A stretch of 64,000 bases of DNA from Candidatus Woesearchaeota archaeon (GCA_016192995.1 JACPTB010000007.1:62001-126000), one strand, 5' to 3'. Positions 2,818-63,198 are shown, numbered from the stretch's first letter. The notes: generated by a model from the sequence alone, not told the origin. Translations and numbers: made by a program.

Positions 2818-5058
2818 CTACTGCTCGAACATCTTAGCAATAACACTATTTCCAATGTAATTGAACGTAAGTATTATTACTCCTGCTATCAACACATATA
2901 CTATCGTGCTCCTTATTAAATTTTTTCCAATCAAATAATCTTCATTGAGTTTATCGCTGCCATTTTCAATGCCATTGGTTAAAATCGTCAACAAATACGT
3001 GATTTGAACAACATATATGCCAACAATTGTTTGAAAATAATATGTTGGAATTCCTAACCCAAAAAAATCTTCTTGCAATCCACCAAGCTCATTGGTGACG
3101 CCTTTTTGAGCAATTAAAGGGCCAAGTTTTCCGAGGATGTTTGTAATCATTGAAGTAATCCCAATAACTATGCCTGCAATAGCAGGTGTCATCACTGAAA
3201 TCTGCGATTTCATCGATGATATAACATCTGCCAGCAAATCTTTTAATCGTTCATCGACACGATGCATTTCTTTAATATACCTTGCCATATTTAGCAGCGC
3301 CTGCGCAGCTGTTTTTGGACCTTTTTTAATCGCTTGAATCAAAACCTTCATAGAACTTTGTATCATTTTAGAAGGATACGAGGCAATTGCCCCTATTTTT
3401 GGATTAAACAAGGCTTCATTGACACTTGCGCCAAGTTTTGTTATGTTCATACTTACCGTGCTGAAAAAATCTCCTGTTGCAGTTCCTTCCATTACTTTTG
3501 CCACTTTTCCAAAAGCTGTTTCTGCAGGAATTTCATCTCCTAATCTATTTCCCAGTTGAAATAATCCTGACGCAAATTCCTGTTCTAATTGTGTTGTTTG
3601 TTCTCTAATCTTTATCAGTTTTTCAGTTCTATATTTATAATACAACCCTATGCTTAAGGCAAATGCCAAGGGAAAAAATAAGCTTAATAATCCGGCTATT
3701 AATCCAAATGGGCCGAGGAATTTTGTTGTTCCCTGAATTTCCCGGTAATCAAGCAGGCAAAAAGGTTTTTTGCAGCTTGTTGTTGGATCATCGCCATATT
3801 CTCCACCAAAACCAATATCTTGAAATCCTGTTGTATGGAGAATTATAGGCAACAACGCTAACAATAAACAAAATCCACCGACTATAATAGAAATAATTAA
3901 TGGCTGAATTTTTAGTTCTATGCTTCCTAGCTTAATCAGAATATATTTGTATTTTTTAAGTTCAGGCATATAATCTGCGAGATCAAGCTCGCCATAACCA
4001 GTAGGCCGTTTCGAGAGGATGCTTTTTCCAAGGTAGTATACAAGGACAGGAATAATGATATTATACAATGCTGCAATATAATACCATTTTACTCCTTTCA
4101 TAAAACTTACGACGAGAGGAAGAATTACCAAACCAAGAATTGGCAAAATAATTCCCATCATGTGAAGCATCGTAATAGGACCTTTCAAATTATGGGCGTA
4201 ATGCATCATCTTTTCATAGGTTTCTTCGAGCATTACGTCAAGCCCTTTTTCCAAAATCTGAATTCTTCTTGTGTCTGAAGGTTCGTATAACGACGATTCA
4301 ACTAAATGAAATGCTTCAATAAATTCCATATTCCATTTTCGCCATGTTTCAAGGTAATTATCAATGGAATCTTTTATATTCGAAAATTTCTGGGTTTCAA
4401 TATCCCATAATACTTTTCTCAAATCAAGCGCCAATGGCCCTGTTAAATGGTCAGCAGCGAATTTAATTGCTAATTCTAAATTGGATGTATGGCGCATGTA
4501 GGTAACCATGTAAAATATACAGAGTACCATCTCATTGCTTGCCTTTAAACGGTAACTATCTGCAAGAAACTCAGGCATTTTTTTTAAAATAAAAATTAAT
4601 ATGATTCCAACTATTAAAATAAACAACATCAAAAACATAGAATATTGTTTTCCAAATATTGTTGGGATTGCAATCGCAAGCATGACTCCAAGGAAAATAA
4701 ATATCAAAGGACCTAACAATGCAAAACTTGTTGCTCCTTCTGGAGAGAAATTTAAATGCGCGATCTTTATAGACTCTTCAAGCAATTCTCTATCTTTGTT
4801 GTCAGGTTTTACTTTAAGTATTTTTTCAGAGAGAAGGCAAGCTTTTTCATATAATGAAACTGCTTTTGAGATTCTTTCTTTTCTAAATGTCTGGTACTCA
4901 ATGGAACTAACAGCATTACTGGAACTTCGCCTGTTTTCACTAGAAAAACCTTCAGGATTATTTGAAGGAAGCTCCTGCTCTAATTTCTCTCGATATTTTT
5001 CTAATATAGTTCGCACATCTTTTTCAGCCATATTATCCCTATCATCCGTACTCTTCAT
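2818..5058 (-). CDS. FlaJ/TadC-type pilus platform membrane protein
   Basis: This 746-residue polytopic membrane protein has two T2SS-F-like modules. Hydrophobic clusters occur near residues 115-165, 300-350, 380-410 and 450-475, and again in the last quarter, separated by cytoplasmic helical regions, as in archaeal FlaJ/ArlJ-like platform proteins. Its partner is the FlaI-type ATPase encoded just upstream; the reading frames overlap by 17 bases. The protein would anchor the ATPase and drive assembly of a type IV pilus-like filament. An alternative start is the ATG at 5031. No prepilin or archaellin gene is visible nearby. The large surface protein at 9173 is transcribed divergently. Confidence 0.85.
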   Translation of the reverse strand: MKSTDDRDNMAEKDVRTILEKYREKLEQELPSNNPEGFSSENRRSSSNAVSSIEYQTFRKERISKAVSLYEKACLLSEKILKVKPDNKDRELLEESIKIAHLNFSPEGATSFALLGPLIFIFLGVMLAIAIPTIFGKQYSMFLMLFILIVGIILIFILKKMPEFLADSYRLKASNEMVLCIFYMVTYMRHTSNLELAIKFAADHLTGPLALDLRKVLWDIETQKFSNIKDSIDNYLETWRKWNMEFIEAFHLVESSLYEPSDTRRIQILEKGLDVMLEETYEKMMHYAHNLKGPITMLHMMGIILPILGLVILPLVVSFMKGVKWYYIAALYNIIIPVLVYYLGKSILSKRPTGYGELDLADYMPELKKYKYILIKLGSIELKIQPLIISIIVGGFCLLLALLPIILHTTGFQDIGFGGEYGDDPTTSCKKPFCLLDYREIQGTTKFLGPFGLIAGLLSLFFPLAFALSIGLYYKYRTEKLIKIREQTTQLEQEFASGLFQLGNRLGDEIPAETAFGKVAKVMEGTATGDFFSTVSMNITKLGASVNEALFNPKIGAIASYPSKMIQSSMKVLIQAIKKGPKTAAQALLNMARYIKEMHRVDERLKDLLADVISSMKSQISVMTPAIAGIVIGITSMITNILGKLGPLIAQKGVTNELGGLQEDFFGLGIPTYYFQTIVGIYVVQITYLLTILTNGIENGSDKLNEDYLIGKNLIRSTIVYVLIAGVIILTFNYIGNSVIAKMFEQ

Positions 5059-8000
5059 TTAGCTCTGCATATTTTTTCTTTTTAACTTCCCGCTTTAGCC
5101 ATTCAGTCCATTCGAACAAAATTCTTTTGCTGTCTAAACTTCCCGCTTCTTCCTGTATCTTTTGACAGATCAAATGAAATTGATCATTTGCTTTTATGTA
5201 AAATCCAGCTTCTAATATATTTGGATCGTTGATCTGGTCTGCAATAGCGACTAAGGCTTCTTTTGTTTTTGCTCTGAGAACAATATTGTCCCAAACTGCA
5301 TCCCAATTACCAGCAAACTCTTTGATGTTTCCTGCAATTGCTTTGATTGATTCAGAATCGCCATTCTTTAGTTCGTCTGAAATCAACAACTCATCTTTTT
5401 CTGCATTATACTTCATCAAATCAACAAAACCATTTTCTGTTAACGGATCATTCTGCCAATGCTTTCTTACTTCAGTGATTTGCGTGACTCTTCTTTTTTT
5501 GCTTAAACCATCTGCAGATTTGACAGGGTTTGTCGTTATAATTATATCAGTTGCTTTGAAAGAGGTTTTTGGAATTCCAATATCATTAACCACACGATCA
5601 AATACTCCATACGGCGAATCACCATGAATAGTGCCTGCTACTACATTAGCAGCAGCTCCTACGCGCATAGCTTCATACAATGCAATAGCTTCTTTACTTC
5701 TTACTTCACCTATAATTAATGCAGAATCACCTAATCTCAATGTTGCCCGAATTCCTTTATCAGCACTTACTTCTGTTGATTCAGCTGCCAATGCAGATGC
5801 AACTTTCATTGATTGAATATTAAATCCAAGATCACGCAGATTTTTGGTTGGAAGTTCGAGTGTGTTATGGGCTACAATATTATTACAAATAAAACTTTCA
5901 TTATCAGGAACTGAAAAATCATACACCTGTGTTTCATTATTTGTGACTAGTTCAATATAGATGATTCTATCAAAAAAGATATCAGCTTGTACTAATGCGT
6001 GTAGTTTTTCTATTATTTGCACTTGTTGTCCTTGTTTTGTCTCAAGCAATGATGATAATTTTTTTCTGCCTAACGTATTATTTCGTTTAATATAATCGTT
6101 GGTATTAAAGTTGCTTCCAAAGAGTTCTGAAAGTTGCTTTTTTGTTTCTGACAAAAAATCGAAGGTATCAGTAACATCGTGTGTTGAAACTTTTTGACAT
6201 AGATCAAATAAGATATTACTCTTATATTCTTGAAGGAATCCAATATACTTCGCAAAATTTTGCAATGAAACTAAATCAGATATATTTGCTCTTAATGTTT
6301 TATCGCCTTTTCTTTTTGTTCCTACTCTTAATATAATCTTGAAAAGTAATAATAATGTTTGTAGATCTTTAAGGAGTTGTTCACTTGCAAGTGGAATAAC
6401 AATCTCCTTATCAGTTGCACAACCGTCGCCGCTAAAAATGCCTTTTAAAAATGCTGCGATTTGATCTGGTCCCAGATTGAATATCCATTCAGGAATTCTT
6501 TTTGTATAGGCATTTCCAGTAAAGCCAAGCATATCTTGCAACACGATTTTTAATGTTTTAGAATTAATCATATATGAAATACTATCTGAATGTATTTTTC
6601 TTTCAAATCCGAACTGTTTTGCTATTTTATCAAATATTTCTCGATCTTCTTGATCATTGCACGAAATGATAACTGATGATTTATCATAACAACCATCTGC
6701 TATCCATAATCCAAGGAAGGTAAGAAAATCATTTGTTAATAGTAGATTACTTGGCATCTTTTTGATTGAATTTTCTCCGCATTTAAATGAACAGTTACTA
6801 AACTCAAGTTCAGGAGCTATTGCCATCAAGTCTTTAATGATTTCTCCTGGGAGTATTTTTCGTCGTTTCCAACCCTTGATTGTCCAATATGAATATCCTC
6901 TTGCTTGTCCACTATTTACTATCTGATTATAATATTTTTCTAAGAGATTGTTTACTTCTGCACCTGTTATAAACGAGTATTCTCTTTCTATAATTTTATT
7001 AAAAAGATTTAAGGTATCTATTCTATGGTTAATAAGCGGTAACATTCTTGGAACAGCTATTTTTGAGCCAATCTTTAAATCAGTTATTTTTGCCTCTTCA
7101 ATAGCAGCTTCTTTTCCTAAAATAAATAACCCATGATCTTCAGTAACTTTAATTGTTCTTCCTGTTTTAGTGGTGACCCTATATATTGGTTTCTTCACCT
7201 TATGGCGAATAAAGGTTGCAGGTTGTGCTATCTTTATTTTTCCTTTTTTATCCATAGTCATAATTTCAATGCCATCAAAATTAGAAGTAATCTCGTGGCC
7301 TGCGTGCGTTGTAAGGTAACCATACTTCTCTATTTCTTCATTTATTAACTTACCAACTGTTGTGCGTTTCCATTGTCCTTTTATTCTTACCACTATTTCT
7401 GTATCTCCAGTTACACTATCTTCAATAGTTATAACACGATATTTTCTCATAATCTCTACCATCAAACTTGAAAGCAATGATGATTTACCTGCACTTCTTG
7501 TTCCTGCGACTAATGTAGCTCGTGTTCCATCAACAAAAAAACTCAACAATCCTGCAGCAAGAGGATTGATCATTTTGTATTTGATAAATAATGGCAAAGT
7601 CCAAGGTTTGTCTCGATGGCGCCTAAATGCAAATGCTAAGCCTGTTGGATCGAGAGGAGGGGCAATAACTGAAACTCTCGTAAATGCGCCAGGCAATTCT
7701 AATTCAGTATCAATAATTGGGTTAGCTTCATCTAAAGGCCTTCCTGAAATTAACCTTAATTTTGAAGCCCAACTTTCAGCTTCGTTTTTTGTGGGAATAA
7801 TATTAGTATAACATTCACCATATTTTGCGTGCACGACAAACATAGGTGTTTTACCCATAGGGCTGTTAATCACAATGTCTTGAATGTTCTCATCTTTAAG
7901 CAATACCTCAATCAGTCCAAAACCAACTGTATAGCGAACAAGAATCTCAGTTATTTTGTCTATGTCTTTTGGCCTTAAAGTAACGCCTTTGTTATTTGCA

Positions 8001-8908
8001 AGCTCTTGAATTAAATCATGACCGATATTTGCAAATACTTGCCTCATTCGCTCAGGGTTTGTGAACTCTTCCTGCTTTGGCTTATGTTCTACCATCATTT
8101 TTCTTGCGGTGTCAAGCAGTTCATATTTGTCTTCACTTAGTTTGAACTCTGGAGGCATAACATGGTATAATATTTTAATAGAATTATGAAATTTGAATAT
8201 AGTTACTTCTGTATCTTCGTCTAAGCTATAACTATCAATCTCCTCGCCATCGTTTGGATAGTTTGCCATTAATTTTGTGAACATAAAATCTGGCTTAATT
8301 GTTGGCGCAAAAATATACCGGTATACTGTTCTGTCGCCCACTTTATATCCTGGTAAATAAGGCTTTGCTAATTCTATTACGCGGGTTTTATCGAGAAGCG
8401 ATAAGATGTAATGAATCACCGCTATATATTTTTTAATTACTTCGCGGATATTTTCGTCAACAAACTTATCAACTTCTATTCGCTCCCTTCTTCCTATTCT
8501 TGTCAGTTCCACATAGGCACCGATAGGGTCAGCTTTCAGATTTTTGTAAAGAATATTCTGCAATTCTGTGTATTTTCCCCCAACAAATCTCCTATTATTT
8601 ATATTTAGCGTGCTAAAACTGATATACCCTATTGTTGTTTTATCTTGGAGTATTTTCTTATGCAAATCTGCTATCTCCTTAATCATGCTTGTTTGACTAA
8701 GGTCATATTCATAATCCCTGTTCTGGGTGAAAACTATTTTGGTAACATCGCTTATCTGCTCTAAAATATCAACTGTTTTTCCCATCACTAATTCAGAGTC
8801 TTCCAGCGATGGCGCCATAGGAAAACTTTCAACATAAATGAAAAGAATATTTTCTTCACCTTCTCGTATTACTTCAAAATCCCAATCATTTTTTGGCGCT
8901 AAGGGCAT
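5042..8908 (-). CDS. FlaI/GspE-type secretion ATPase precursor containing an intein
   Basis: The 1288-residue precursor splices to a mature ATPase of about 770 residues. The N-terminal extein (residues 1-497) holds the N-domain and Walker A (GTRSAGKSS, about 468-476) and runs to ITIED. The C-terminal extein (1016-1288) resumes with TLELP, then carries GEVRSKEAIALYEAMR (Walker B region) and the His box GTIHGDSPYG (about 1090). It would hydrolyse ATP at the cytoplasmic face to power a type IV pilus, archaellum-like or secretion system with the adjacent FlaJ-like protein. The start codon overlaps the stop of the ribbon-helix-helix gene by one base (TAATG), so translation is probably coupled. The intein falls in the Asp-box of the active site, so the unspliced protein should be inactive. 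Confidence 0.92.
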   Translation of the reverse strand: MPLAPKNDWDFEVIREGEENILFIYVESFPMAPSLEDSELVMGKTVDILEQISDVTKIVFTQNRDYEYDLSQTSMIKEIADLHKKILQDKTTIGYISFSTLNINNRRFVGGKYTELQNILYKNLKADPIGAYVELTRIGRRERIEVDKFVDENIREVIKKYIAVIHYILSLLDKTRVIELAKPYLPGYKVGDRTVYRYIFAPTIKPDFMFTKLMANYPNDGEEIDSYSLDEDTEVTIFKFHNSIKILYHVMPPEFKLSEDKYELLDTARKMMVEHKPKQEEFTNPERMRQVFANIGHDLIQELANNKGVTLRPKDIDKITEILVRYTVGFGLIEVLLKDENIQDIVINSPMGKTPMFVVHAKYGECYTNIIPTKNEAESWASKLRLISGRPLDEANPIIDTELELPGAFTRVSVIAPPLDPTGLAFAFRRHRDKPWTLPLFIKYKMINPLAAGLLSFFVDGTRATLVAGTRSAGKSSLLSSLMVEIMRKYRVITIEDSVTGDTEIVVRIKGQWKRTTVGKLINEEIEKYGYLTTHAGHEITSNFDGIEIMTMDKKGKIKIAQPATFIRHKVKKPIYRVTTKTGRTIKVTEDHGLFILGKEAAIEEAKITDLKIGSKIAVPRMLPLINHRIDTLNLFNKIIEREYSFITGAEVNNLLEKYYNQIVNSGQARGYSYWTIKGWKRRKILPGEIIKDLMAIAPELEFSNCSFKCGENSIKKMPSNLLLTNDFLTFLGLWIADGCYDKSSVIISCNDQEDREIFDKIAKQFGFERKIHSDSISYMINSKTLKIVLQDMLGFTGNAYTKRIPEWIFNLGPDQIAAFLKGIFSGDGCATDKEIVIPLASEQLLKDLQTLLLLFKIILRVGTKRKGDKTLRANISDLVSLQNFAKYIGFLQEYKSNILFDLCQKVSTHDVTDTFDFLSETKKQLSELFGSNFNTNDYIKRNNTLGRKKLSSLLETKQGQQVQIIEKLHALVQADIFFDRIIYIELVTNNETQVYDFSVPDNESFICNNIVAHNTLELPTKNLRDLGFNIQSMKVASALAAESTEVSADKGIRATLRLGDSALIIGEVRSKEAIALYEAMRVGAAANVVAGTIHGDSPYGVFDRVVNDIGIPKTSFKATDIIITTNPVKSADGLSKKRRVTQITEVRKHWQNDPLTENGFVDLMKYNAEKDELLISDELKNGDSESIKAIAGNIKEFAGNWDAVWDNIVLRAKTKEALVAIADQINDPNILEAGFYIKANDQFHLICQKIQEEAGSLDSKRILFEWTEWLKREVKKKKYAELNEEYG
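5864..7417 (-). other. Intein with LAGLIDADG homing endonuclease domain
   Basis: This is an in-frame insertion of 518 residues between ITIED and TLELP of the ATPase. Splice features are Ser at position 1 (SVTGDTEIVV), a TxxH block (VTEDHGLFIL), the C-terminal VAHN with the terminal Asn, and Thr as the +1 residue. The two endonuclease repeats are FLGLWIADG (precursor residues about 731-739) and LKGIFSGDG (about 820-828), both keeping the acidic residue. The endonuclease therefore looks intact and the element potentially mobile. Confidence 0.93.
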
Positions 8909-58595: not shown

Positions 58596-58691
58596 ATGAA
58601 CATTTTTGACAAATTGAAAGAACTTCAAGAGTCAGTAAGAAACGTTAATTATACCAATGCTTTATTTTATTTAACCCATCAAAGAACATGA
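58596..58691 (+). CDS. 31-residue peptide
   Basis: This short ORF has AAGGAGTG about 12 bases before the ATG. The product has a charged amphipathic start (MNIFDKLKELQESVRN) and an aromatic end. It overlaps the 3' end of the minus-strand PrgI gene. Support is weak and it may be a remnant. A GCATTTTT...AAAAATGC hairpin (58536-58568) precedes it. Confidence 0.3.
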   Translation: MNIFDKLKELQESVRNVNYTNALFYLTHQRT

Positions 58692-58874
58692 AAAAAGCAG
58701 CATAAAGAGAATAAAAATAGAAAGTGAGCCAGAGACTGAGATTGGCAAAGATGTTTTAAGAATAAACAAGAATACCAGAAAAAAAGCGGGGAAAGCATAC
58801 GCTAACTGCGGGAATGTCAAGCCAAAGATGATCTTTTCTTTGTGCTGTAATGGTGGAGGAATATCGTATGCCAT
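58671..58874 (-). CDS. PrgI-like type IV secretion membrane protein (short)
   Basis: This 67-residue protein starts with the family pattern MAYDIPPPLQHKEKIIFGLT and has two membrane segments (about residues 20-38 and 43-62). PrgI/VirB3-type proteins sit at the inner membrane of conjugation-like type IV secretion systems, usually next to the VirB4 ATPase. Here it is short, ends right after the second helix, and no VirB4 follows. A VirB6-like gene in the same orientation is 3.4 kb upstream, beyond the DGR. Confidence 0.65.
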   Translation of the reverse strand: MAYDIPPPLQHKEKIIFGLTFPQLAYAFPAFFLVFLFILKTSLPISVSGSLSIFILFMLLFSCSLMG

Positions 58875-59012
58875 TGAATATGAATGAAAATGCTCTATTT
58901 TATAGCGAGTTGACAAGATTAGTATTGCAGAACAGGGTTAAAAAAGGGATTAACAAGAATTACGGAAAAACGATACATGATTAAATCATGTACTACTTAA
59001 AAGTAACTAAAA

Positions 59013-59030
59013 GCGAAAGCTTTATAAATA
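59013..59030 (+). promoter_or_regulatory. BRE/TATA promoter of the DGR target gene
   Basis: GCGAAAGCTTTATAAATA is a good archaeal BRE plus TATA box, predicting transcription start near 59055. The ATPase at 63592 has nearly the same promoter (CCGAAAGCTTAATAAATA). Confidence 0.6.
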
Positions 59031-59064
59031 ACGACGTAATCTCATACAAAAAACATTCAATTTT

Positions 59065-59120
59065 ACTTGCCGAACTAATATGAAGGCAAGTCTGATAATG
59101 TCGATGAAGTCGGCATTATC
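59065..59120 (+). promoter_or_regulatory. Two tandem hairpins in the DGR target mRNA leader
   Basis: Stem 1 is ACTTGCC (59065-59071) with GGCAAGT (59085-59091). Stem 2 is an 11-bp stem, GATAATGTCGA (59094-59104) with TCGGCATTATC (59110-59120) and a 5-base loop, with one G-U pair. GGAGATGTGAT follows at 59126, then the ATG at 59142. This looks like a leader controlling translation or mRNA stability. Confidence 0.5.
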
Positions 59121-59141
59121 TTTATGGAGATGTGATTAAAA

Positions 59142-60233
59142 ATGGCAGAAAACTCACAAGCAGTATTATTAGGTAAAGGTGTTGATAAAGATGGCAATGT
59201 TCTTGAAGTAAAAGGAGAACGCTTTTACAGGGGAGCTCAAACAGGTGTTGCTGATTCTATTCGAGCAGTTTTAGGAGCAGGATTATTTCGTGTTCCAACA
59301 TACATGCAAGGTGAAGGAAGAATTGCTGCTGTTCAAGATGCGCAAGCTCGAGGTAATGTGCAATTAGCTCTTCAAGATCCAATTTGGGGTCATTTTGGAG
59401 ATAGCTATGCAGAACGGTTAACTATTTTAGATGAAAAAGGAATATTAGGACAAAAAAGACAATTATATGTAGTTTCACTGCAGAATGCTGCGTTATTTAG
59501 TAATGATCATCAGCGAATAAGAAATGCTGTTGTTAACAGAGAGTTAGTTGATTATGCACTACAATTAACACAACCAGAAGTAGATACATTCTTAGAAGCA
59601 CTGAGAGATGCTAATCCAACAGCAACATTTAAACAACATGACTGGGTGAAGAATGAAGGAAGTCCAGTATATGTTTTCAAAGGACAAAATGGTTTTAATG
59701 AATTTAATGACGCTTCCAGTAAGGACGGATTCTTAGCTGATATGCCTGCATACGTTGTTGTAGAAAAGGCAGAAGAAGCAAGAACAGTTCCTTCTGGACG
59801 TTACGCAGTTAGCCAACAAAGAGGTAATAAAAATTTAGTAGTTGATTTTGGCGGTAAAAAACAATTAGGAAAATTGATGGATGCAGCAGAAGCATTAGGC
59901 TACACACAATTTGGTTCATACCATGACGGTTTTACTATAGAAAATGGCGGCCGCTTGGTTGTGTTGGACGATCATGACGGTGGTCTTAATGGCAGCGATT
60001 ACCTCGGCAGTAATGGCGGCTCTCTCGGGGTAGCGCCGGAGGCGCTCGTCGCGCGGCAAAAAATTGTAGGTTCAGTGCCACAAATCAATTTAGAAAAAAC
60101 TGTTGCACAAGAAGCACAACAAAGAATGGTTCCTGAAAATAATGTTCGTAGATTATTAACTGAAGACATTGGTTATAATGCATCAAAAGTTGATGAACTT
60201 ATGCGAAGACTTTCAGCGTACGCTTCAAAATAG
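59142..60233 (+). CDS. DGR target protein with variable region
   Basis: This 363-residue protein has no signal peptide or membrane segment, so it is predicted to be cytoplasmic. Residues about 269-297 are encoded by the variable repeat (59946-60033). The variable residues are at codons 276, 277, 280, 285, 286, 287, 289 and 290, where template Asn codons became Asp, Asp, Gly, Ser, Asp, Tyr, Gly and Ser. Two further changes in codons 296-297 give GGG GTA. The region around GGRLVVL and GLNG, then VAPEALVARQ, may be a ligand-binding fold, but the VR is about 66 residues from the C-terminus rather than at the end. It has its own promoter and an SD, GGAGATG. Confidence 0.88.
   Translation: MAENSQAVLLGKGVDKDGNVLEVKGERFYRGAQTGVADSIRAVLGAGLFRVPTYMQGEGRIAAVQDAQARGNVQLALQDPIWGHFGDSYAERLTILDEKGILGQKRQLYVVSLQNAALFSNDHQRIRNAVVNRELVDYALQLTQPEVDTFLEALRDANPTATFKQHDWVKNEGSPVYVFKGQNGFNEFNDASSKDGFLADMPAYVVVEKAEEARTVPSGRYAVSQQRGNKNLVVDFGGKKQLGKLMDAAEALGYTQFGSYHDGFTIENGGRLVVLDDHDGGLNGSDYLGSNGGSLGVAPEALVARQKIVGSVPQINLEKTVAQEAQQRMVPENNVRRLLTEDIGYNASKVDELMRRLSAYASK
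59946..60033 (+). other. DGR variable repeat (VR)
   Basis: The 88-bp segment aligns without gaps to the template at 60399-60486 (offset 453). There are 12 mismatches, at 59967, 59970, 59979, 59980, 59995, 59997, 60000, 60006, 60007, 60010, 60029 and 60030. All are A in the template; 11 are G here and one (60000) is T. No non-A position differs. The first 21 bases are identical. Confidence 0.95.
60032..60046 (+). other. GC hairpin at the 3' end of VR
   Basis: AGCGCC-GGA-GGCGCT forms a 6-bp stem with a 3-base loop, starting at the last bases of the VR. In known DGRs (e.g. the Bordetella phage BPP-1 system) a DNA hairpin/cruciform just after VR promotes target recognition. The template copy lacks this hairpin, as expected for a one-way donor. 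Confidence 0.7.
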
Positions 60234-60398
60234 AAACATTTTAATATTTTATTATTCTTTTTCTTTTGTCCCAGCTGCGAAAGTGGCTTGGAACTACACG
60301 CTCTTTCACGTTGGCAACTTTGTTGCTATAAAATACAGCTCCGACTTGATGCTCTGCACTGAAGGGGCAGTGAATTCGTAAGTGGAAGGGCTACTCCG

Positions 60399-60486
60399 GG
60401 CGGCCGCTTGGTTGTGTTGAACAATCATGACAATGGTCTTAATGGCAACAATAACCTCAACAATAATGGCGGCTCTCTCGGAATAG
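60399..60486 (+). other. DGR template repeat (TR)
   Basis: This 88-bp segment is rich in AAC/AAT codons in the same frame as VR (it would encode LNNHDNGLNGNNNLNNNGG). It has 25 adenines after its identical 5' part, 12 of them altered in VR. It is non-coding as it stands: the frame opens after a TGA at 60360. The upstream 60234-60398 contains no supported gene or Avd. Confidence 0.93.
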
Positions 60487-60525
60487 GCAAGCTAACAAAT
60501 TGCTGGGACTTTACTTTTGATGATA

Positions 60526-60614
60526 TAGTAAACGTACCAAATAATCTATATTTTTTACGTACGTTTACTATTTAACTGACACTAAGTATTTATAATGATG
60601 TTTGGTGTCAGTTA
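60526..60614 (+). repeat. Two tandem inverted repeats between TR and RT
   Basis: IR1 is TAGTAAACGTAC (60526-60537) with its perfect complement (60559-60570), loop 21. IR2 is TAACTGACAC (60573-60582) with GTGTCAGTTA (60605-60614), loop 22. The loop of IR2 contains the TATA-like TATTTATAAT and the first two RT start codons. They may be structures of the template RNA or a control on RT translation. Confidence 0.7.
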
Positions 60615-62289
60615 CACAATGGATTTTCAACCTTCTTTTGATATTCTTTGCTCTTATGAGAACCTTGAGCTTGCTTTTTCCAAAGCAAGAAGAGGAAAAA
60701 CGCTTAAGCCTTATATTATTGAATTTGAGCAAAGTCTCAAAGCAAATTTAATGCTACTTCGAAATGAACTTCTGTTTCATACCTATAAACCAAAACCATT
60801 AGAGACTTTTATTATTAGAGATCCAAAAACACGAAAGATTAGCAAATCTGATTTTAGAGACCGTGTTGTCCATCATGCATTCTGCAATATTATTGAACCA
60901 TTATTTGATAAGCAATTTATCTTTGATAATTATGCAAACAGAATAGGCAAAGGAGCATTTAAAGCAATTGAACGGTTTGACGAATTCAAAAGAAAAGTAT
61001 CAAAGAATAACAACAGAATTGCATATATTCTCAAAGCAGACATTAAACATTATTTTGATACAGTCGATCATTCTATTCTTATGTTAATTATTAAGAGGAG
61101 TATAAAAGATGAAAGGATTTTGCAATTAATTAAAATAATTCTTTCAAATCACAACACAACAGAACAAGGTAAAGGAATGCCTTTAGGAAATCTTACTTCT
61201 CAATTCTTAGCAAATGTATACCTTAATGAACTTGACCAATTTATTAAGCATACATTAAAAGCGAAATATTACATAAGATATGTTGATGATTTCGTAATTT
61301 TAGATAGCTCAAAAGAAGTATTGGAGAAGTACAGAGAAAAGATTGATTATTTTCTTAGCAAGAATCTTTTGCTGCAATTGCATCCAGACAAATCAAAGAT
61401 TCTCAAATTGCATTCTGGCATTCTTTTTCTTGGTTTTCGTATTTTTTATTATCATAAATTGATACGAAAGAAAAACATCAGAAAATTTCATGGCAAGTTA
61501 AAAGAAATGAAGCGATTACATGAAAAGAATCTAATCGAACGAGAAAAAGTAATAGAACGTTTTGAAGGATGGCTTGCATATATCTCCCATGCAGACACAT
61601 ACAAATATAAGCGTAGCATTACAAAAATAATAAATCGTGATTTTCCAATTGACAAAAAAGTTCAGATCATTAATCTTAAAAAGCATGAATCTTTTGCGAA
61701 GAAAGTTGAACAAAGTAACTTTCAATTTTCACAGCAAAAAACATTACAATTACTGAAAAAGAATGTTTCTATCAAAGATATTGCGCTTGGAAGAAATATC
61801 AAAGAAGCAACAGTATGGGAGCATATTGCGCAGCTTATTGAGTTCAATCAATTGTTTGTTTATGATGTTATTCAGAAAGAAAAAGCAGAAAAGATAAAAC
61901 GCTGCATAAGAACTGAAAAGGATAAGCTTAAAGAAATAATGCAGAAAGTAAACGATAAATCAGTTACTTTCAATGAAATTAACTGTGTTCTTGCCAGTGT
62001 TAAAGCAAGACATAGAAAGAAAAGCATTTTTCAAATCATTAAATGGTATAAAATAACAAACTGTTATAGAAAGTGTTACATAAATCAAAAACAAAGAGAA
62101 ATTTGCAGTCAGAAATTTACTTATTTTGCTTCTCAGAATCCAACATTAGCAATGAAACAGAAAGAGTTCTTGGATTTATTCAATAACCATATGAAAATAT
62201 GCGTTCTTCCAGAATATGAAAAAAGAAAATACGTATCGTGGAAAGAGTTTGAGAGAGATAAAACAATCATTGTAACAGTAAAAAACTAA
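60595..62289 (+). CDS. DGR reverse transcriptase with C-terminal helix-turn-helix extension
   Basis: This 564-residue reverse transcriptase has a palm with LKADIKHYFDTVDH (motif A), LGNLTSQ (about residues 197-203, the DGR form of the usual QGxxxSP) and YVDD (about 229-232). A thumb region runs to about 350. The rest (about 378-460) contains QKTLQLLKKNVSIKDIALGR followed by NIKEATVWEHIAQLIEFNQL and a later VTFNEINCVLASVKAR, which resembles the HTH_40/RQC-C domain of YpbB and helicases. Typical DGR RTs are 300-420 residues and lack this. An alternative start is ATG 60619 (MDFQPSFDIL), about 26 bases after a TATA-like TTTATAAT. It copies TR RNA into A-mutated cDNA. Confidence 0.93.
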   Translation: MMFGVSYTMDFQPSFDILCSYENLELAFSKARRGKTLKPYIIEFEQSLKANLMLLRNELLFHTYKPKPLETFIIRDPKTRKISKSDFRDRVVHHAFCNIIEPLFDKQFIFDNYANRIGKGAFKAIERFDEFKRKVSKNNNRIAYILKADIKHYFDTVDHSILMLIIKRSIKDERILQLIKIILSNHNTTEQGKGMPLGNLTSQFLANVYLNELDQFIKHTLKAKYYIRYVDDFVILDSSKEVLEKYREKIDYFLSKNLLLQLHPDKSKILKLHSGILFLGFRIFYYHKLIRKKNIRKFHGKLKEMKRLHEKNLIEREKVIERFEGWLAYISHADTYKYKRSITKIINRDFPIDKKVQIINLKKHESFAKKVEQSNFQFSQQKTLQLLKKNVSIKDIALGRNIKEATVWEHIAQLIEFNQLFVYDVIQKEKAEKIKRCIRTEKDKLKEIMQKVNDKSVTFNEINCVLASVKARHRKKSIFQIIKWYKITNCYRKCYINQKQREICSQKFTYFASQNPTLAMKQKEFLDLFNNHMKICVLPEYEKRKYVSWKEFERDKTIIVTVKN

Positions 62290-62292
62290 TAT

Positions 62293-63198
62293 TCATCCTG
62301 CCAGCAACGCAATATATTTCGTTGCCTGTTGAATGTCATCTTTGATGGAAACATTGCTTGACTTTTTCATGGCAAATTTAATCGCAAGCCATAATGTGTA
62401 ATTGACAATAGCAAAACAAGTAATCATCACAAGAATTTTTATATTTTCAGATAATGGGACTTCAATCAGTTTTGAACATGCTAAAATAATCAGCAAGTCA
62501 ATAAAAGTTGTGAAAATGAATATTCCAAGTAAATTGAGAATAAACTTTCCATAGCCTTTTAGAGGCGGAATAAAATAGAGAAATATTCCTAACGGAAACA
62601 ACACCACTCCAAAACTAACGACAAAATAACGTAGTACAAGCATCAGCATAGTAAAAAATAATGTCAGCGCATAAACAAATGACATGATAAATTCTAAACC
62701 AATATTAACAAGATTATCTGCTGTCAATAAAAAGAATTGTGGATCAACCATAGAGAGAATTGTGCTGTTCATAACATTGCTCAAGTTCAGAATCAAATCA
62801 TAAATGTAATACGAGCCTTGAATAAGCACAATCATAATGAAAGTATTCGTAAGCATGTCTTTTGCATACGATCGTTTAATTGGGTTGGCGTTTGAGGTAA
62901 GAAAAATAAAACCCACATAGAGAAAAAAGAAAATGTAAAAGAAACTCAGAATATATCTAATAACTGACCATACATGCTGAAAAATTGCAATGGAAACATC
63001 AGCAGTAAGCAACTTCTGAACTGAAATCAACATCGGCAATAAAGGAGCATTAATTATCGTGAGAATATAGTTATACATTTTTTCTGGAATGCAGGACGCT
63101 AGATTTGTTAAGCTGCATTCGTCTTGCTCAGGTTCAGCAGCAACAAGAGGAGCAGTAATCAATAAGAGAAAAATAAAAACAAAGGTGGTTTTTTCCAT
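62293..63198 (-). CDS. VirB6/TrbL-like polytopic membrane protein
   Basis: This 301-residue protein has a signal peptide (cleavage near VAAEP), a short Cys-containing extracytoplasmic segment (ECSLTNLASCIPE), then about six membrane segments (e.g. VWSVIRYILSFFYIFFFLYVGF, MLMLVLRYFVVSFGVVLFPLG), the pattern of VirB6/TrbL channel proteins. It is in the same orientation as the PrgI-like gene at 58671. It ends 4 bases from the RT stop. Confidence 0.7.
   Translation of the reverse strand: MEKTTFVFIFLLLITAPLVAAEPEQDECSLTNLASCIPEKMYNYILTIINAPLLPMLISVQKLLTADVSIAIFQHVWSVIRYILSFFYIFFFLYVGFIFLTSNANPIKRSYAKDMLTNTFIMIVLIQGSYYIYDLILNLSNVMNSTILSMVDPQFFLLTADNLVNIGLEFIMSFVYALTLFFTMLMLVLRYFVVSFGVVLFPLGIFLYFIPPLKGYGKFILNLLGIFIFTTFIDLLIILACSKLIEVPLSENIKILVMITCFAIVNYTLWLAIKFAMKKSSNVSIKDDIQQATKYIALLAG

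Follow-up and report, generated by a model that had tools for sequence, protein, structure and literature searches.

The window analysed here, a stretch of 64,000 nucleotides from Candidatus Woesearchaeota archaeon (GCA_016192995.1, JACPTB010000007.1:62001-126000), carries at positions 59142-62289 a diversity-generating retroelement (DGR). A gene for a variable target protein (59142-60233, 363 aa) is followed on the same, plus, strand by a template repeat (TR, 60399-60486) and by the gene for a DGR-type reverse transcriptase (RT, 60595-62289, 564 aa); the matching variable repeat (VR, 59946-60033) lies in frame within the target gene and covers residues 269-297 of the protein. The initial annotation of this DNA had listed these four components as a complete DGR in an archaeal genome, and they are indeed all present at these positions, with support from the TR/VR comparison, from the RT phylogeny and structure match and from the AvpA-like fold of the target. 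That annotation captured the core of the element and missed its structured template RNA, the helices that close this RNA, the hairpin that follows VR and the surrounding type IV secretion system (T4SS) genes. The 1.6-Mb genome (99.6% complete) contains a single TR/VR pair and a single RT of the DGR kind, and its archaeal assignment is sound because the named relatives of the RT come from Woesearchaeota, Nanoarchaeota and Pacearchaeota bins.

When realigned, TR and VR match over 88 bp without gaps and, as annotated, differ at 12 positions, each of which corresponds to one of the 25 TR adenines, with no mismatch at the remaining 63 bases (chance P=2.5e-8). The twelve differences had all been counted as sites of adenine-directed variation; their location at TR adenines stands, but two of them (alignment positions 84-85, AA to GG) are the fixed difference between the initiation of mutagenic homing (IMH) mark of VR and its counterpart IMH* in TR (GGGGTA and GGAATA). 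Since this difference recurs in nearly all related loci, 10 of the 12 mismatches are regarded as mutagenic, and mutagenesis thus affected 10 of the other 22 TR adenines. The variable codons comprise ten AAY (Asn), one CAT (His) and one GAC (Asp), from which no stop codon can arise, and the number of possible protein variants calculated from the sequence is about 15^10 x 16 = 9e12. The TR pattern with its adenines masked had no match in viral contigs.

The IMH* mark GGAATAG (60480-60486) forms the 3' end of TR and the IMH mark GGGGTAG (60027-60033) that of VR, and nearly every related locus has GGAATA at the end of TR and GGGGTA in VR. A-to-G changes account for 98 of 100 differences in the final ten bases of TR, compared with 345 of 557 elsewhere (Fisher P=3e-16). 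Directly 3' of VR is a DNA hairpin, AGCGCC-GGA-GGCGCT (60032-60046). In the window, shuffling the GC-rich sequence of this hairpin gives folds of similar stability, and its support is comparative: a hairpin occupies the same site in 41 of 49 related targets, as against 9% of shuffled controls, and the relatives have 19 different stems with mostly three-base GNA loops. Homing of the BPP-1 DGR requires a hairpin after VR (PMC3240598).

The target protein, whose family the initial annotation had singled out for description, is predicted to be an AvpA-like variable protein with a C-type-lectin fold. Although searches of the profile library produced no family match, its AlphaFold2 model (pLDDT 86.4, pTM 0.80) matched AvpA (5ioo) in Foldseek with E=1e-8 and a TM-score of 0.84 by target length, at 14% identity. 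Neither a signal peptide nor a membrane segment is evident by eye. Homologues of the target were found in 21 genomes of the order. The position of VR in the order is bimodal, either within about 10 residues of the C-terminus, which is the predominant arrangement, or followed by a tail of 40-68 residues; the window protein, with about 65-66 residues after VR, is of the tail form. Three further loci (L057, L059 and L060) encode target homologues with no TR or RT in the stretch examined; VR-like and GVA(P/Q)EAL sequences are retained in L059 and L060. Such targets may be orphaned or served remotely.

The RT matches Pfam RVT_1 (E=1.3e-21) and PHROG_1423 (E=1.5e-113), and its best match among solved structures is the RT of the BPP-1 DGR (8ub7, 5e-43). 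The annotated LGxxxSQ and YVDD motifs are found as LGNLTSQ (residues 197-203, 61183-61203) and YVDD (residues 229-232, 61279-61290). Phylogeny, which the annotation had named as a way to disprove a DGR origin, groups the RT with those of BPP-1, ANMV-1 and other DGRs and separates it from the three group II RTs included (support 0.83, with few outgroups). The extension noted earlier consists of an HTH_40 domain (PF14493, E=1.2e-15; residues 379-466, 61729-61992) and a tail with four invariant cysteines (C490, C494, C504 and C536). HTH_40 is present in all 14 aligned long RTs, and the RTs that bear it form one clade (support 0.998), in which the only HTH-less member, at locus L063, has a decayed HTH remnant downstream. 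Of 18 loci in the HTH clade, 12 have TR and RT on different strands, as against 0 of 18 loci with short RTs (P=3e-5, phylogeny ignored); in the window, whose RT belongs to this clade, the two share a strand. Template and RT are thus often uncoupled in the HTH_40 clade, which appears to be new. Our literature search, which was incomplete, found no paper linking HTH_40 to DGRs, so that priority is uncertain.

In line with the initial annotation, no Avd-like open reading frame (ORF) was found between target and RT. A genome search with PF05635 also gave no match, although the same model matched no control genome either. A 70-aa ORF (60169-60381) was considered as an Avd and rejected; it overlaps the 3' end of the target gene and the RNA described below and is likely spurious.

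The space between target and RT is instead taken up by a full-length match to the Rfam family RT-16 (RF03019; 60269-60399, 64.8 bits against a gathering threshold of 50), which ends on the first base of TR. Nearly all related DGRs that were scanned have RT-16 directly 5' of TR, always on the TR strand and mostly within a few bases of it. Furthermore, we examined the ten best RT-16 matches from a search that used only the RNA model and not the RT; nine lie in genomes outside the order. Each of the ten precedes an adenine-rich, TR-like sequence that ends in GAATA, GAATG or a close variant, a VR was detected for eight within the short stretch examined, and the closing helix (see below) scored better than permuted partners (z=3.3, 56/50000). 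Of the 371 genomes in the phylum sample, 102 had an RT-16 match above the threshold, as opposed to 0 of 14 control genomes; RT-16 is also present in Micrarchaeota and Aenigmatarchaeota bins and in one viral contig, and there was no match in BPP-1, ANMV-1, two candidate phyla radiation (CPR) loci or Anabaena. Upstream of RT-16 is a TATA-like box, TTTAATA (60240-60246, -28 to -22), whose positions -28 to -25 consist exclusively of A and T in 34 of 34 loci. Together with a T-rich stretch at the other end, this box makes a separate transcript of about 240 nt likely. Collectively, the sequence comparisons argue that RT-16, an RNA for which Rfam lists no function, is the front part of a DGR template RNA: RT-16, TR and a short 3' strand would form one molecule of about 240 nt (60268-60509), with its scaffold 5' of TR. 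This arrangement appears to be new, but in the literature searched RF03019 occurs only as a family with a revised structure; an earlier statement relating RT-16 to DGRs is possible and priority is uncertain.

Two loci extend the occurrence of this RNA. L061 (G312:C106:30000-41779) contains RT-16, TR and VR with no RT in 11.8 kb, and the RTs of that genome are on other contigs, which suggests that the template RNA is served in trans. The viral contig, L206 (IMGVR_UViG_3300036859_000782), has RT-16 at 5733-5860, just upstream of a DGR RT 50% identical to that of the window, and likely belongs to a virus that infects DPANN archaea and has a template RNA of this type.

Three helices define the proposed fold. 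P1a pairs the 5' end of RT-16 with bases beyond TR: GUCCCAGC (60268-60275) is exactly complementary to GCUGGGAC (60502-60509), the strands being GTCCCAGC and, immediately before the T-rich stretch, GCTGGGAC. P1b joins TGGCTTG (60284-60290), just before a conserved CUACA(C/U)G, to CAAGCTA (60488-60494), directly after TR. P3 (GCTCTTTCAC, 60300-60309, with GTGGAAGGGC, 60382-60391) stands just 5' of TR. When 39 DGRs of the order were compared, P1a had an own-pair score of 23.6, compared with 17.75+/-0.51 for permuted partners (z=11.5, 0/20000), and P1b was also supported by covariation (z=7.7, 0/20000). In an alignment of 24 sequences, 98% of the P1a cells and 97% of the P3 cells are paired, with changes on both sides in 6 of 8 and 8 of 9 pairs, respectively; sliding the helices by 1-3 columns reduced pairing to 35-50%. 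These 24 loci were chosen for having P1a, and the unselected permutation test on the 39 DGRs is the fairer one for this helix. Unconstrained energy folding of the window RNA recovered P1a, P1b and P3 (-83.6 kcal/mol, z=-4.06). A general scan for closing helices around bacterial and viral DGR TRs found no consistent helix.

The DGR fills a slot between two truncated T4SS genes, both on the minus strand. On the left is a PrgI-VirB4 gene (58615-58916), 94% and 68% identical to the intact copy on contig C1 of the same genome, and on the right is a VirB6-like gene (62293-63198), 94% identical to residues 387-686 of its intact copy. Contig C1 carries a fuller version of the cluster with pilin, VirB6-like and PrgI-VirB4 genes, in which the slot is filled by a DUF6602 gene and the breakpoints nearly coincide with those of the window. 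In relatives from one family (loci L311, L312, L313, L315, L316 and L096 were compared), the slot between VirB6-like and PrgI-VirB4 holds a 206-aa orphan, a UvrD-like gene (recognized by eye), a 308-aa protein or nothing. The slot (58615-63198) thus seems to hold interchangeable cargo, the DGR among it, and this location of a DGR appears to be new. Elsewhere in the window, a 1288-aa ORF for a secretion-type ATPase (5042-8908, minus strand) has an apparent intein-like insert, seen by eye, running from TIEDSVTGDTEI to SFICNNIVAHNTLELPTK.

The truncation of both flanking genes raises the question of whether the DGR is a recently inactivated remnant in a decaying T4SS cluster, and broken DGR RTs do occur in relatives (for example, L058 and L063). 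We regard this as improbable, though the least improbable of the alternatives considered. The RT and target ORFs, IMH, hairpin, TR and all helices are intact; the lack of any TR/VR mismatch outside adenines implies that little time has passed since the last homing; and the truncations lie outside the DGR, while in the relative G073 a DGR RT (contig C5) stands beside an intact VirB6-like gene. The RT of G073 is 88% identical to that of the window, but its contig ends inside the RT, which precludes a TR/VR comparison.

RT-16 might also serve the RT mRNA, as its leader or regulator, and be a neighbour of TR without belonging to the template RNA. RT-16, TR and RT indeed follow each other in this order on one strand both in the window and in the short-RT loci, and the Rfam family owes its name only to its nearness to RT genes. 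However, where TR and RT are on different strands RT-16 keeps with TR, even when the RT is up to 6 kb away, and P1a and P1b pair RT-16 with bases beyond TR, all of which makes such a role very unlikely. Comparably unlikely is that P1a is a mere terminator or a chance complement and that the true fold is the local hairpin of the Rfam consensus, which pairs the same 5' strand locally. P1a is followed by a T-rich stretch, but TR lies between its two strands, which are separated by about 230 nt. The local pairing shows no covariation in the 24 sequences (435 of 500 shuffles scored as high, and a single cell is changed on both sides), in contrast to the long-range pairing, and we rejected it as the fold of this strand; an alternative local fold of RT-16 may exist at another stage. 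Finally, an identity of the RT as a group II intron, retron or defence-associated (DRT) enzyme beside a coincidental repeat can be practically dismissed. NCBIfam and PADLOC models of other RTs gave weak matches, those in NCBIfam far below the cut-offs (group II maturase, 169 of 300 bits; Drt3a, 64 of 200 bits), whereas PHROG_1423, the BPP-1 RT as top PDB match, the tree, the LGNLTSQ motif and adenine-specific TR/VR pairs in about 40 relatives all identify a DGR enzyme.

Many members of this order of Woesearchaeota-like archaea have DGRs: RT homologues were found in 110 of 353 genomes, and a scan for adenine-biased repeats, the comparison across the lineage that the initial annotation had proposed, detected TR/VR pairs beside most of the RT homologue loci fetched. 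One 7.4-kb DGR contig was binned to genomes of two families (L102 and L103; G236:C125 and G099:C46), so that one of these bins is probably contaminated; with 1 difference in 7401 bp, it is a single contig in two bins and useless as a source of same-strain variation.

The annotation was also right that DGRs are known from nanoarchaeal genomes. DPANN DGRs have been described (PMC4372165, PMC5006420, PMC8144416, PMC10907252), so that the presence of a DGR alone is not new. The DUSEL4 nanoarchaeal DGRs and AvpA (Paul 2015, PMC4372165; Handa 2016, PMC5006420) share with the window an IMH TGGGGT opposite an IMH* TGGAAT, as already described for DUSEL4, the AvpA-type fold and, within the target gene, a VR hairpin whose GRA loop has three bases; VR is also followed by a tail, of 46 residues in AvpA and 65-66 in the window. 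IMH, VR hairpin and post-VR tail are therefore known features. As far as consulted, these two papers describe neither a structured template RNA nor an RT extension, and they place small Avd-like ORFs between RT and target, where the window has RT-16. ANMV-1, an archaeal virus (KP703175), has a DGR RT that is 37% identical and falls near the DPANN RTs in the tree, but it has no RT-16 match, a small ORF that its authors list as Avd and a different target. The Rfam RT-16 model, which the window matches over its full length, extends no further than the first TR base and has the 5' strand paired locally, whereas covariation favours long-range pairing across TR.

The BPP-1 DGR resembles that of the window in its homologous RT, adenine mutagenesis, IMH and IMH*, the post-VR hairpin and the presence of RNA on both sides of TR. 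In BPP-1, however, Avd is accompanied by a long structured spacer 3' of TR, matched by Phage_DGR (RF03022) at L296:2750-2882, which folds and recruits the RT-Avd complex and contains the adenine that primes at IMH*, while the RT is halted by a motif of the upstream RNA (PMC12875486). The window has the opposite proportions: most of the structured RNA precedes TR, just about 25 nt would be needed on the 3' side, and the RT, unlike that of BPP-1, carries HTH_40.

By analogy with BPP-1, we propose the following scheme. A discrete template RNA of about 240 nt would be transcribed from its own TATA-like promoter, with RT-16 as a 5' scaffold; P1a and P1b, whose pairing is supported by covariation, would enclose TR and keep its 3' end beside the scaffold. 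The RT would start near IMH* and P1b, misincorporate at adenines and stop at the stable P3, so that the cDNA would match TR. This cDNA would replace VR, positioned by the fixed GGGGTA of IMH and by the hairpin, and thereby diversify ten Asn codons, one His codon and one Asp codon of the AvpA-like protein. In the weakest step, the scaffold and the RT extension would substitute for both Avd and the spacer RNA of the phage; the HTH domain might bind the RNA or the hairpin and might assist action in trans.

Several observations weigh against this scheme. P1b is paired in just 71% of the alignment cells and is imperfect in the window, a few loci are without a clear P1a (which is why alignment A3 omits 5 of the 39), the truncated flanking genes indicate that the locus may be decaying, and RT-16 could in principle have another role besides that of a template scaffold. 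Nevertheless, we consider it highly probable that the window contains a complete, probably functional RT-16-type DGR of a Woesearchaeota-like archaeon in which the RNA is closed around TR and the scaffold and RT extension would take the place of Avd, and we infer from the sequence that the element is active. Whether the arrangement is general is evenly balanced in our judgement: DPANN DGRs might use an inverted, free-standing, separately transcribed and trans-acting template RNA, in which a 5' scaffold clamped around TR replaces Avd and the 3' spacer, with the HTH_40/Cys extension of one clade recruiting the RT to the RNA or to the target DNA.

With this proposal, the orphan Rfam RNA RT-16 gains a putative function, and a DGR template RNA is described in which covarying helices could enclose TR and the scaffold lies 5' of TR. 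RT-16 would also provide an RNA-based route to TRs whose RT is elsewhere in the genome and that RT-centred searches can miss, and a compact Avd-free system of RT and RNA might be of use in targeted protein diversification. For the archaea themselves, the proposed scheme offers a testable account of how DGRs may operate without Avd in these tiny organisms.

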